A stretch of 37,381 bases of DNA from positions 1 to 37,381 of IMG/VR virus record IMGVR_UViG_3300017917_003260, one strand, 5' to 3'. The DNA comes from a virus. A program made the translations under genes and the position numbers. The notes beneath the pieces are model-generated. The model saw only the letters and a program-made list of their open reading frames with translations. It did no database searches and was not told the origin of the DNA. Shown here piece after piece: positions 4,677-25,982 of this stretch (positions within the stretch are counted from its first letter, which is position 1; every line of letters starts with the position of its first letter).

Positions 4677-5294
4677 ATGAGTATAGATGTAAAATTAAAG
4701 AACAAGCCAAAAATTTTAGGATTAGATATTTCTACTAAAACTATTGGGTGGGCTCTATTCGATATGACAGGGTCCAAATTATTGGAGTTAACACATTTCT
4801 CCCCAAAAATCAAACCTCAACCTGAGGATAAAATTGAAGAATTAATTTTAAAAGCGGAAGCATTTAAGAAACATTTATTGAGTTATAAGGATATTGGTAT
4901 TACTCGAGTTATTATTGAGGAACCATTATTACAATCAAACAATGTTTATACAATTGGAACGTTATTAAGATATAACACATTGATTCTCAAAGCATGTTAT
5001 GATGTGTTGGGTATTTTACCAACATTTATATCGACTTATAATTCAAGAAAATTTGCGTTTCCTGATTTAGTGGGTCAAAATGATAAAGGACGTAATGTTT
5101 TATTTGGTGGATATCCAAAAGACATAGATAAGAAACATGTTATTTGGGAACATGTAAATGCGGTATGTCCTGATGTTAATTGGTTATATGGTAAGACTGG
5201 CAATCTTAAAAAAGAAAATTATGACATGGCCGATGCGGCAACTTGTGTGATTGGTTATGTTAATATGAATAAATTAGAAAAATCCGGCAACTGA
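4677..5294 (+). CDS. RuvC-like Holliday junction resolvase
   Basis: This 205-residue protein has the RNase H-fold resolvase pattern. Near the N-terminus is LGLDIST, with Asp17; the central strand VIIEEP has Glu81/82; the C-terminal DMADA has Asp183 and Asp186. These match the four acidic metal ligands of RuvC (D, E, D, D). RuvC enzymes cut four-way DNA junctions, here presumably to resolve recombination and replication intermediates before packaging. T4 itself uses the unrelated endonuclease VII (gp49), so this may be a functional replacement. A TATATTGT box at 4666-4673 lies only three bases before the ATG and could give an almost leaderless transcript. The gene heads a run of replication and recombination genes. 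Confidence 0.85.
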   Translation: MSIDVKLKNKPKILGLDISTKTIGWALFDMTGSKLLELTHFSPKIKPQPEDKIEELILKAEAFKKHLLSYKDIGITRVIIEEPLLQSNNVYTIGTLLRYNTLILKACYDVLGILPTFISTYNSRKFAFPDLVGQNDKGRNVLFGGYPKDIDKKHVIWEHVNAVCPDVNWLYGKTGNLKKENYDMADAATCVIGYVNMNKLEKSGN

Positions 5295-5322
5295 TATTTT
5301 ACTTTGTAAAATGTTTAAGGTA

Positions 5323-5330
5323 TATTTATA
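5323..5330 (+). promoter_or_regulatory. TATTTATA box, putative late promoter
   Basis: TATTTATA occurs in the gap after the resolvase gene, within GGTATATTTATAAAAG. The same octamer, or a one-base variant, lies before several fibre genes and the membrane cassette in this window. Here it points at the GC-rich hairpin element at 5337-5405 rather than directly at a gene. Assignment to the phage sigma factor is inference. Confidence 0.5.
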
Positions 5331-5336
5331 AAAGAA

Positions 5337-5405
5337 GACGGGAAGTGTAGAAATACACTTTTGGTTGGTGTCCCTCGGAGGTGGTGTTCCGGGGGATTTT
5401 TTTTT
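5337..5405 (+). ncRNA. Candidate small structured RNA or attenuator
   Basis: Starting a few bases after the TATTTATA box there is a compact element of about 69 bases. The first stem is AAGTGTA/TACACTT (5343-5349 with 5354-5360) closed by a GAAA tetraloop. A G/T-rich linker (GGTTGGTG) follows. The second stem is TCCCTCGG/CCGGGGGA (5371-5378 with 5389-5396) and runs into nine T. The local GC content is far above the surrounding AT-rich DNA, a common mark of structured RNA in such genomes. It could be an independent small RNA ending at the terminator, or the leader of the primase transcript acting as an attenuator. I recognise no known RNA family. Confidence 0.5.
5371..5405 (+). terminator. Intrinsic terminator before the primase gene
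   Basis: An 8-bp stem TCCCTCGG/CCGGGGGA (one G-U pair) with a 10-base loop is followed directly by nine T. It lies 30 bases before the primase ATG. It can end transcripts from the resolvase side or from the TATTTATA box at 5323. Confidence 0.8.
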
Positions 5406-5420
5406 CTCATTATTTTTTAC

Positions 5421-5428
5421 TATATTTC
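5421..5428 (+). promoter_or_regulatory. TATATTTC box, putative early promoter of primase
   Basis: TATATTTC resembles the Bacteroidota -7 consensus TAnnTTTG and lies after the terminator, six bases before the primase ATG at 5435. A transcript started from it would be leaderless or nearly so. I see no clear -33 TTTG partner. Confidence 0.4.
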
Positions 5429-5434
5429 TACAGT

Positions 5435-6379
5435 ATGGTAAATCAAGAAATAGACTATTCTCCTGTTATTGAAATTCTAGAAGACATTTTAGGCGATTGT
5501 AATTTGCACAACGATTACAAAGGTCAGATATCTTTTGATTGCCCAACATGTTCATATGATATAAAAGGATTAGACCACGGAGACGGTAAAGGTAATTTAG
5601 AAGTTAATTACAAATACGGTGTGTATAAATGCTGGGTATGTGCGGAAACACATCAAACACATGGGTCGATACATAAGTTGATTAAAAAATTTGGTAACCC
5701 TAAACAATTAAAGAAGTATCTCATTTTAAGACCTGAAGAGAATGAAGATGGAACAAAAAGAGTTTATACACCTGTTAAGTTACCAATAGATTTTATCCCA
5801 TTCAAAGATGCAAGTATGGGACTTAAAATGACACCACAATATAAACAGGCATTTAATTACATTAAAAAAAGGAATATAACTGATTTAATGTTACAGATGT
5901 ATAATATAGGATTTTGTTATCAAGGTATATATGAGAATAGAATAATCATTCCATCATATGATGAAGAGAAAAGATTAAACTATTTTATTGCACGTTCTTA
6001 TTTATCAAAAACTAAATTAAAATATAAAAACCCCGAAGCACAAAAGGAGTTAATTATCTTTAATGAATACTTGGTTAACTGGAATGAAACAATATACATT
6101 GTTGAAGGTGCATTCGATAGTATCTTTATTCCAAATTCAATACCATTACTCGGTAAGTTTATGAGTGATAATCTATTCAATAAACTATACACACAAGCAA
6201 AAGGAAAAATCATAATAGTTTTAGATCCGGATGCTTGGTATGATGCTGAGAGGTTATACCACAAATTAAATTGTGGTAAATTAATGGGAAGAGTGTTTGC
6301 AATAAAATTGGAAGGAAACCAAGATATTGCAGACCTACAAGGAAAATTAGACAATTATAAAATAAAACAATTAGATTAA
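5435..6379 (+). CDS. DNA primase with zinc finger and Toprim domain
   Basis: I take the ATG at 5435 (MVNQEIDYS) as the start. The frame is open further upstream, but that part runs through the terminator and encodes an implausible hydrophobic leader. The protein has 314 residues. A zinc finger near the N-terminus uses Cys36/Cys39 (CPTC) and Cys66/Cys69 (CWVC). The Toprim core follows with YIVEGAFDS (Glu near 226) and VLDPDAW (two Asp near 263-265). This arrangement is that of DnaG- or T4 gp61-like primases, which make RNA primers for lagging-strand synthesis. The stop overlaps the ATG of the nuclease gene (TAATG), so the two are probably co-translated. Confidence 0.88.
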   Translation: MVNQEIDYSPVIEILEDILGDCNLHNDYKGQISFDCPTCSYDIKGLDHGDGKGNLEVNYKYGVYKCWVCAETHQTHGSIHKLIKKFGNPKQLKKYLILRPEENEDGTKRVYTPVKLPIDFIPFKDASMGLKMTPQYKQAFNYIKKRNITDLMLQMYNIGFCYQGIYENRIIIPSYDEEKRLNYFIARSYLSKTKLKYKNPEAQKELIIFNEYLVNWNETIYIVEGAFDSIFIPNSIPLLGKFMSDNLFNKLYTQAKGKIIIVLDPDAWYDAERLYHKLNCGKLMGRVFAIKLEGNQDIADLQGKLDNYKIKQLD

Positions 6380-7236
6380 TGAATTTACAAGACATCTCGT
6401 TAGAGATAAAAGACGTATTAGACCAGAGAAGAAAGGAATTACAATTATCTTTTATAGAAGAAAAACACATCTACTATATGAAAGATTTAGATGGAAACAT
6501 AAAATCAAATTTTCCATCTGTTTCAAAGATTATAAAGAAATTTCATAAACCATTTGATGCTGAAGGTATGGCATTAAAAATGTCTAAAGGTGATCCCGAA
6601 GGACAAGCACAATTACTTGCCGAATGGAAACAAGCCGGTGATTTGTCTACCAATATGGGTAGTCGTGTTCACTTTGAATTAGAATCGAACCTAATTGATA
6701 GATTTGGTAACTACAAAGAAGTTAGACAACCTATTTTCACAATTAATGAAGAACAACAACGTAAGAGTGATAATATGATAGGTGCAGGAAAACAATTCCT
6801 CGACTTAATGTTAGAAAGAGGTGCGGTTTTATTAGACACTGAAATTGTATTAGGTGACCCTGAAGAACAGTATACGGGACAACCTGATAAAGTTTGGATT
6901 ATGATGAATAAAGAAAAAACGGGATTTGGATTTGTAACAACCGATTGGAAAACAAACCAACCCAAAAACTTTGAAGTTCATCATTATACTGGTAAACTTT
7001 ATCCACCATTCCAAGAATATCATGATAATGCATTAGGTCATTATTATTTACAACTTCCATTATATGGTAGATTATTGTTAAAAATGTTGAAGGGATCTAA
7101 GTTTGAAAATACTAAATTATTAGGTAATGTTGTTGTTCTTTTAAAAGATGATGGAACATTCACAGAATATAAAGTACCTCATCAAATCAACAACGCCATT
7201 TTAACTATGGATTTATCAAAATATATTAAAAGATGA
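6379..7236 (+). CDS. PD-(D/E)XK exonuclease, RecB/Cas4-like
   Basis: The protein has 285 residues and is coupled to the primase stop by TAATG. It shows the motifs of the RecB-type nuclease superfamily in order. GSRVHFELE at about residue 94 has the His/Glu of motif I. YTGQPDKVW provides the Asp of motif II. VTTDWKTNQ is the D-x-K catalytic strand. QLPLYGRLL is the Q-x3-Y helix. Such enzymes degrade or trim DNA ends during recombination. Its position directly before genes 47 and 46 suggests that it works with that end-processing complex. It ends in an ATGA overlap with gene 47. Confidence 0.85.
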   Translation: MNLQDISLEIKDVLDQRRKELQLSFIEEKHIYYMKDLDGNIKSNFPSVSKIIKKFHKPFDAEGMALKMSKGDPEGQAQLLAEWKQAGDLSTNMGSRVHFELESNLIDRFGNYKEVRQPIFTINEEQQRKSDNMIGAGKQFLDLMLERGAVLLDTEIVLGDPEEQYTGQPDKVWIMMNKEKTGFGFVTTDWKTNQPKNFEVHHYTGKLYPPFQEYHDNALGHYYLQLPLYGRLLLKMLKGSKFENTKLLGNVVVLLKDDGTFTEYKVPHQINNAILTMDLSKYIKR

Positions 7237-8057: not shown

Positions 8058-8697
8058 AGAATTCATTCTTTATTGTGAATTAAATAAAATAAAAGACCCG
8101 AACAAATTAGCAACGGAAACCTTCAATAGAGGGTTTTCTTTGTTAAAATATGGTGAGACACCTAATGGTAACATAACTACAAAAGAAGTAAAGGTTGAAG
8201 TACCTGTTGAGATTATTGTTGAAAAAGAAGTCATCAAAGAAATCATAAAGGAAGTTCCCGTTGAAAAAATTGTAGAGAAAGAAGTTATTGTTGAAAAAGA
8301 AATAAAAGTACCATATGAGGTAATAAAAGAAGTTCCTGTTGAAGTCATTAAAGAAGTGATAAAGGAAGTAAAAGTTGAGGTAATCAAAGAAGTGCCGGTA
8401 GAAGTACTCAAACAAGGTAAAACAAAGACAGTTACTAAAGAAATTATAAAGGAGGTTCCAGTTGAAGTTATAAAGGAAGTAATCAAAGAAGTACCCGTTG
8501 AAAAGATTGTGGAAGTGATAAAAGAGGTTACTGTTGAAAAAATCGTTGAAGTTATTAACACTAAAAAAGTGGATGAATTAACTGAAGAGAATTTAAAATT
8601 AAAAAAAGAATTGGGTAATTTAACTAACGCATTAAATAACTTAAACAAGGGTACATTCATGAAGAATAGTAACTTAGGTAGTTTATATGACGAGTAA
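8026..8697 (+). CDS. KEV-repeat protein between genes 47 and 46
   Basis: The protein has 223 residues from the ATG at 8026; a TTG at 8020 in frame could also serve. Residues 1-45 (starting MKLKSTLTLDKEFILYCELN) look like a short strand followed by two helices, reminiscent of ribbon-helix-helix or a small adaptor domain. Residues 50-180 are a low-complexity array of variations on VEVIKEVPVEKIVEKEV, which may form extended beta or coil structure. The end (KVDELTEENLKLKKELGNL) has a coiled-coil pattern suited to oligomerisation. The gene begins inside the end of gene 47, so expression is coupled to it. I do not recognise a function. Confidence 0.85.
   Translation: MKLKSTLTLDKEFILYCELNKIKDPNKLATETFNRGFSLLKYGETPNGNITTKEVKVEVPVEIIVEKEVIKEIIKEVPVEKIVEKEVIVEKEIKVPYEVIKEVPVEVIKEVIKEVKVEVIKEVPVEVLKQGKTKTVTKEIIKEVPVEVIKEVIKEVPVEKIVEVIKEVTVEKIVEVINTKKVDELTEENLKLKKELGNLTNALNNLNKGTFMKNSNLGSLYDE
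8175..8560 (+). repeat. Degenerate repeats coding EVPVE(V/K)IKEV
   Basis: Imperfect repeats of GAAGTTCCTGTTGAA and AAAGAAGTAATC-like units, 15 to 24 bases long, encode alternating VPVE and IKEV blocks. The codons are varied although the amino acids repeat, so selection seems to keep the protein repeat and not the DNA repeat. Confidence 0.7.
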
Positions 8698-8743
8698 TTT
8701 GGTTTTTACAAATAATTTAGGTATATTATAGAAAATTTACATT

Positions 8744-9052
8744 ATGGAAATTATATTATGGGCCTTTATGGCATATGGAATGACTTCAATATTAGTATGG
8801 GGGTCAATTTTTGAAAATCAAAGAATATGGATAAAAAAACACTCTAAATTTTTTGGGGACCTAATCAGTTGTACATTATGTACAGGTACTTGGGTTGGTT
8901 TTTTTATGTCACTATTTTTAGGTAGTATTTCTACAAAATATTTTGATACTGTTTGGATCATCAATTTATTTTTTGATGGTATGTTCTCTGCTGGTGTAGT
9001 TTGGGCAATAAACGCAATCATCGAATTCTTCGAGGAAAGTAGAATTAAATAA
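8744..9052 (+). CDS. Small membrane protein with CxxC-GTW motif (DUF1360-like)
   Basis: This 102-residue protein has hydrophobic segments at about residues 3-22, 44-62 and 68-92. Between the first two is the motif SCTLCTGTWVGF (two Cys, then G-T-W). A Cys-x2-Cys-x-G-x-W motif followed by a membrane helix is typical of DUF1360-type phage and bacterial membrane proteins of unknown function. It probably sits in the host inner membrane. A TATATTAT box around 8723-8730 in the preceding gap could be its promoter. It ends five bases before the next gene. Confidence 0.8.
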   Translation: MEIILWAFMAYGMTSILVWGSIFENQRIWIKKHSKFFGDLISCTLCTGTWVGFFMSLFLGSISTKYFDTVWIINLFFDGMFSAGVVWAINAIIEFFEESRIK

Positions 9053-25457: not shown

Positions 25458-25982
25458 ATGGAAACAAATTGGTACTTGGTAAAAGTTCTACCAGGAAAAG
25501 AAAGAACATTAGCTGAAGAATTTAATAAACACATTACGTTAGGTAAAATGAATAACATCAGTAGATTCGTTTGTCCAACGGAAAAAAACTTTGTAGTTGT
25601 AAAAAACAAAAAAGTTTTAAGAGAAAAAGTTTTATATAGTGGTTATCTTTATTTTGAAGCAAATAAAAAACTAAATGAAGACGAGTTAAAAACTCTATCT
25701 CTATTACCTAATATTATGGGTATGGGAGGAAGTAGAATACCAATCGAATTAAGAGAGAGTGATGTGAGAAGAATATTGAAAGATGAAGTTCTTGAACAAC
25801 ATGTCGATTCAAAAAGATTAAAATATGTTATTGGTGAACAAGTAATGGTTATTGAAGGACCATTCAATACATTTGAAGGTGTAATATCAGATATTAAAGG
25901 AGAGAAGGTGGATGTCGAAATAAAAATATTTGGTAGAAACACTGCAGTTGAGTTAACTTTAAATCAAATATCAAAAATTTAA
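25458..25982 (+). CDS. nusG: NusG-like transcription elongation factor
   Basis: The protein has 174 residues. The N-terminal NGN domain starts NWYLVKVLPGKERTLAEEF and includes YSGYLYFEA, which fits the 'p.lfpgYlfv' strand. The C-terminal KOW domain (about 127-174) reads YVIGEQVMVIEGPFNTFEGV with the expected hydrophobic spacing and Gly. NusG binds RNA polymerase and alters pausing and termination. A phage copy could favour phage transcripts, together with the phage sigma factor, or form an antitermination complex. The stop overlaps the next ATG (TAATG). Confidence 0.9.
   Translation: METNWYLVKVLPGKERTLAEEFNKHITLGKMNNISRFVCPTEKNFVVVKNKKVLREKVLYSGYLYFEANKKLNEDELKTLSLLPNIMGMGGSRIPIELRESDVRRILKDEVLEQHVDSKRLKYVIGEQVMVIEGPFNTFEGVISDIKGEKVDVEIKIFGRNTAVELTLNQISKI

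Follow-up and report, generated by a model that had tools for sequence, protein, structure and literature searches.

Virulent phages have so far yielded few small RNAs, fewer still with a function; those described in PAK_P3 (sRNA1 and sRNA2) and in T4 (the band C and D RNAs) are mostly of unknown function (PMC4933390). In Bacteroides, which has no obvious homologues of Hfq and ProQ, intergenic sRNAs of the GibS type have been characterised, and the -7 consensus of Bacteroidota promoters is TAnnTTTG (PMC7366714). RNA anti-CRISPRs (Racrs), short phage RNAs with promoters of their own, mimic CRISPR repeats (PMC10651486). Here we consider a short element in a 37,381-base virus record from IMG/VR (the window, meaning the whole stretch of DNA that was analysed; 31-32% GC), which comparison among relatives indicates is a conserved folded RNA family common to a large group of lake phages. 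The family is new in being absent from Rfam, while its general kind is already known.

The element and its surroundings

The element lies on the plus strand between genes for a RuvC-like resolvase and a DnaG-type primase, and comprises two hairpins separated by a conserved linker:

4677-5294, plus strand: RuvC-like resolvase gene, 205 aa, upstream of the element (PHROG 159, E 1.3e-7)
5297-5304, plus strand: putative upstream part of the promoter, TTTTACTT, about -40 to -33 of the RNA start
5321-5328, plus strand: promoter-like -7 box TATATTTA, then TA (TATATTTATA at 5321-5330), of the Bacteroidota TAnnTTTG type
5337-5405, plus strand: whole RNA element (covariance model match of 84.6 bits; same element in relatives)
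5337-5342, plus strand: conserved 5' segment GACGGG, then A (GACGGGA from 5337)
5341-5362, plus strand: stem 1, including a GAAA loop at 5350-5353 (predicted fold; the inner four pairs covary)
5363-5369, plus strand: conserved GGUUGGU between the hairpins (GGTTGG at 5363-5368)
5370-5397, plus strand: intrinsic terminator hairpin, its stem varying with compensation
5380-5387, plus strand: terminator loop GGTGGTGT (family form GGUGGUGU), 8 bases with a near-invariant core UGGUG
5397-5405, plus strand: terminator U-run, nine T
5420-5434, plus strand: promoter-like box TATATTTC of the primase gene with the bases that follow, about 12-14 nt before the ATG (by likeness to boxes in related phages)
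5435-6379, plus strand: DnaG-type primase gene, 314 aa, downstream of the element (PHROG 47, E 2.5e-37)

An initial annotation of this DNA had described a two-hairpin element at 5321-5405 with a GAAA-capped 7-bp stem, a G/T linker and nine T, all of which are seen in the sequence. The core of stem 1 is AAGTGTA/TACACTT (5343-5349 with 5354-5360), closed by the GAAA loop. The terminator stem had been given as 8 bp; it is present, though longer, with GTCCCTCGGA at 5370-5379 pairing with TCCGGGGGAT at 5388-5397 over 10 pairs, two of them G-U. The element is GC-rich in an AT-rich genome, as had been noticed (48% against 31-32% for the window), and its folding energy is -31.5 kcal/mol compared to -19 +/- 3.2 in shuffled sequences (z -3.9; 0 of 200 shuffles). 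When its half of the window was scanned for terminator-like sites, its stem-loop was the first listed (the other half was scanned too). The primase ATG at 5435 indeed follows 29 bases past the element, behind a box of its own; beyond the primase lie genes for an exonuclease and SbcD- and SbcC-like proteins and, farther along, a prohead protease and a sigma factor.

Conservation and covariation

A search for compensatory changes in related elements before primase had been proposed as a check, and such changes proved to be strong among 63 distinct sequences. We measured them in two alignments, one made with plain MAFFT from 28 sequences and not fitted to the structure, and one of all 63 aligned to the model, which leans towards it. 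In the MAFFT alignment 95.9% of pair cells were kept, against 74.1% after shuffling, with a covariation of 0.564 against 0.155, and the signal was lost when the partners were slid out of register. The model alignment gave 97.0% paired cells against 66.8%, a covariation of 0.777 against 0.211, and 344 double-changed cells against 110 in shuffles. Double changes were found at all nine modelled terminator pairs and at all four inner pairs of stem 1. Additionally, GAC of the 5' segment may pair with GUU at 5364-5366; these outer pairs are kept in 98.4% of cells with a double change in only one pair, so that support for this nearly invariant helix is weak. In the terminator stem 98 of 500 pairs are G-U, a high share that fits an RNA of the plus strand and not a DNA hairpin or an RNA of the minus strand.

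The family follows a common plan of GACGGGA, stem 1, UUURGUUGG, terminator stem, loop GGUGGUGU and U-run. UGGUG is found in 63 of 63 sequences, GUUGG and the 5' CGG each in 61, and the complete loop GGUGGUGU in 42; the conserved surfaces are single-stranded or loop bases. The loop of stem 1 varies, being UA-GNRA-UA (N = A, C or U: GAAA, GCAA, GTAA) or UUAAAA, UUUA, UAUUUU and others. Since stem-1 loops vary this widely and GAAA is the commonest terminator loop in the 335-kb related record G001, we dropped the idea that stem 1 makes a GNRA or T-loop-like tertiary contact as a rule of the family. The other terminators found in G001 and a second large record, G002, have loops mostly of 4 nt, often GAAA, and UGGUG occurs in none of them; in G001 the GAAA loop accounts for 9 of 30, about a third.

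Distribution among related phages

We fetched 60 relatives of the primase from IMG/VR and obtained more loci from two pattern scans. A form of the element occupies the gap between RuvC and primase in 60 of 60 fetched relatives, 59 with the common plan and one (L055) divergent; in the relatives inspected the primase is about 59-90% identical and there is one copy of the element per phage. Among the additional loci examined, primase adjoins the element in all but one (L318, an unrelated chance match to the pattern), and RuvC does so too unless the stretch ends first. The divergent branch (L055 and L191-L193) has the loop AUGGUGU, an absent or weakened GUUGG, and covariance model scores of 19-36 bits.

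Exactly one convincing copy was found in each of 17 large records of the main clade, and no convincing second copy in the same phages; weak matches of 15-18 bits that we inspected in one locus (L267) were gene ends followed by ordinary terminators. The element is absent from outgroups with a primase about 42-52% identical to that of L055, in several of which RuvC and primase are separated just by a short gap that holds a TATCTTT-like box, and whole outgroup records of up to 322 kb hold no convincing copy. It is likewise absent from the cultured phage immuto and from LR756508, and an exact-pattern search of GTDB genome contigs gave no match.

The related records reach 335 kb at 31-32% GC, and the ribosomal protein bS21 scores over the Pfam cut-off in four of them (G001 at 122185-122331, G002 at 182937-183083, G033 and G041). 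G001 carries tRNAs, a tmRNA and a GOLLD RNA; the GOLLD RNA (290 bits) and the phage tmRNA lie at 8548-8949 and 6274-6679 on the minus strand of locus L270 (G001:80001-100000), near a tRNA cluster, and ARAGORN gives the tag of the tmRNA as ATSTVAVA. Chen et al. 2022 described bS21-encoding Bacteroidetes phages from freshwater with genomes of 293-331 kb, a GC content of 31.0-33.7% and 5-25 tRNAs (PMC9723584), which fits with our phages being close to, or part of, that group of jumbo phages. The 37,381-base window itself holds no bS21, so that its host is assigned by kinship only.

Transcription signals and coding potential

In 40 of the 41 unique relatives, a box resembling TATA[TC]TTAT starts 12-17 nt, mostly 14-17, upstream of ACGGG. 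With the looser pattern TAnnTT[AT], a box is found in 53 of 62 upstream regions, compared to 38% expected by chance from shuffled upstream regions for this AT-rich motif; chance boxes being common in AT-rich DNA, the nearly fixed spacing counts for more than the presence of a box. From the Bacteroidota -7 consensus the RNA is expected to start at about 5333-5337, at the conserved 5' end, and its 3' end is predicted at about 5402-5405. Relatives also keep TTT at -40 to -38 and T at -33. Farther upstream, at about -50 before the RNA (about 5286-5292 of the window), GGCAACT is kept even where the RuvC frame of relatives has already ended, which suggests an upstream regulatory site in the DNA.

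Throughout G001 and G002, boxes of the TATATT type cluster at 12-14 bases ahead of start codons, and some of these boxes lie just past intrinsic terminators, a pattern that suggests many near-leaderless mRNAs in these phages. An AT-rich box also precedes primase in outgroup phages that lack the element. The primase of the window has the same kind of box and thus probably starts its own, almost leaderless mRNA.

One open frame of 332 aa does enter the element, from a GTG at 5381 inside the terminator loop onwards into primase. The frame from GTGGTG to primase is random among relatives (16/13/12), with no frame preferred or conserved, for which reason we rejected an extended primase; nothing here points to extra coding. 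The element hence contains no gene, as originally stated, this sole frame not being conserved.

Possible functions

We favour the reading that the element is probably an RNA of about 70 nt, transcribed independently, ended by an intrinsic terminator and acting in trans. A host-type RNA polymerase would start at the TATATTT(A) box just upstream of GACGGG and would stop at the strong hairpin and U-run; the RNA, whose fold is shown by the covariation, would adopt stem 1 and the terminator hairpin, and would act through its 5' CGG, GUUGG and UGGUG loop on a partner RNA or protein of host or phage, with primase probably insulated by the terminator and read from its own promoter. That CGG, GUUGG and UGGUG are conserved while the helices drift makes action in trans through these surfaces the most likely mode. 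Against it stands the location, fixed beside primase in every relative as a cis element would show. The first of the two readings in the initial annotation, an independent terminated RNA, is thus well supported by comparison: compensatory changes are strong, the promoter-like box is conserved, primase has a box to itself, and no ORF is conserved.

The second, an attenuator of the replication block, has lost ground and seems rather unlikely in the form that is the main alternative, a protein-dependent leader of the primase operon. Transcripts begun at the TATATTTA box would then terminate unless a protein or ligand bound the conserved loop and GUUGG, and read-through would reach the primase, exonuclease and SbcCD-like genes. 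A terminating attenuator would have this same order of promoter, structured RNA, terminator and gene, the position beside primase never changes, the conserved loop lies within the terminator itself, and the window encodes a protein (25458-25982) that matches a PHROG family of transcription antiterminators (E 2.7e-22) and might be a partner in control through terminators. However, no alternative antiterminator pairing is predicted: the chance that the 5' arm of the terminator pairs upstream is 0.04, no higher than for shuffled arms (0.05), so an attenuator working by base pairing is not supported. Moreover, the primase box stands where such boxes peak in these phages, and exists also in outgroups without the element.

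It is improbable that the element does no more than terminate the RuvC operon, as any ordinary terminator would. A strong intrinsic terminator does lie directly past a gene end here, and insulating terminators do stand before TATATT boxes elsewhere in these phages, but such a terminator needs neither stem 1 nor invariant CGG, GUUGG and UGGUG, the others found in the same phages are short-looped, and outgroups manage without the element. Most improbable is a role in the DNA itself, with the element folding while single-stranded to serve, for instance, as an origin of replication or a primase site. Origins in single-stranded DNA can work through hairpins, and the element adjoins primase and resolvase; the many one-strand G-U pairs and the U-run argue instead for RNA, and neither G001 nor G002 shows a switch of GC skew at this site, for which reason we rejected an origin.

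Returning to an RNA acting in trans, we sought its targets. Around the start codons of phage genes, sites complementary to the terminator loop show neither enrichment nor clear depletion, and neither the loop, GUUGG nor ACGGG gave a signal for phage mRNA targets above that of anagrams. The loop is only mildly more complementary than shuffled loops to the tail of 16S rRNA or to tRNAs ending in CACCA; we set the 16S pairing aside, since its advantage over shuffling reaches no more than about the 8% level and the bases kept invariant are UGGUG, not GGUGGU. It is a long shot that the RUGGUGU loop pairs with the host translation machinery, for instance the CCA end of CACCA-tailed tRNAs or the 16S 3' tail, though if it did, a phage RNA would act beside the phage's own bS21 in the takeover of translation. 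Whatever its partner, the family offers diverged sequences by the dozen, with sharply conserved points of contact, and belongs to abundant Bacteroidetes lake phages, whose hosts probably lack Hfq and ProQ. With a family so clearly defined, the partner should be findable by pull-down and the role testable through five loop bases.

Comparison with known RNAs

No family of Rfam 15 matches the element at the gathering threshold, and lax thresholds yielded nothing relevant, the best being PyrR at 31.2 bits against the 54 required. The T-box is neither a match at gathering score nor among the lax ones. Like terminating attenuators and T-box leaders, the element precedes a gene and is a structured RNA that ends in a terminator, and its GGUGGU recalls the UGGN bulge of the T-box; unlike them, it has no antiterminator alternative, stem I, specifier loop or Rfam match at gathering score. 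GOLLD (RF02032) is a structured RNA from the same phage group (G001), but it is about 400 nt long, lies in a different place, and its Rfam model does not match the element.

With intergenic Bacteroidota sRNAs of the GibS type (PMC7366714) the element shares a putative promoter of the TAnnTTTG type, a predicted intrinsic terminator and the lack of an ORF, and differs in being a phage gene with very GC-rich hairpins and a near-invariant loop. Like the element as read here, the sRNAs of PAK_P3 and the band C and D RNAs of T4 are small non-coding RNAs of virulent phages (PMC4933390), whereas the element, known here from sequence alone, is defined by its covariation across many phages, between RuvC and primase. 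Racrs are short phage RNAs behind their own promoter and act in trans (PMC10651486), as the element probably does.
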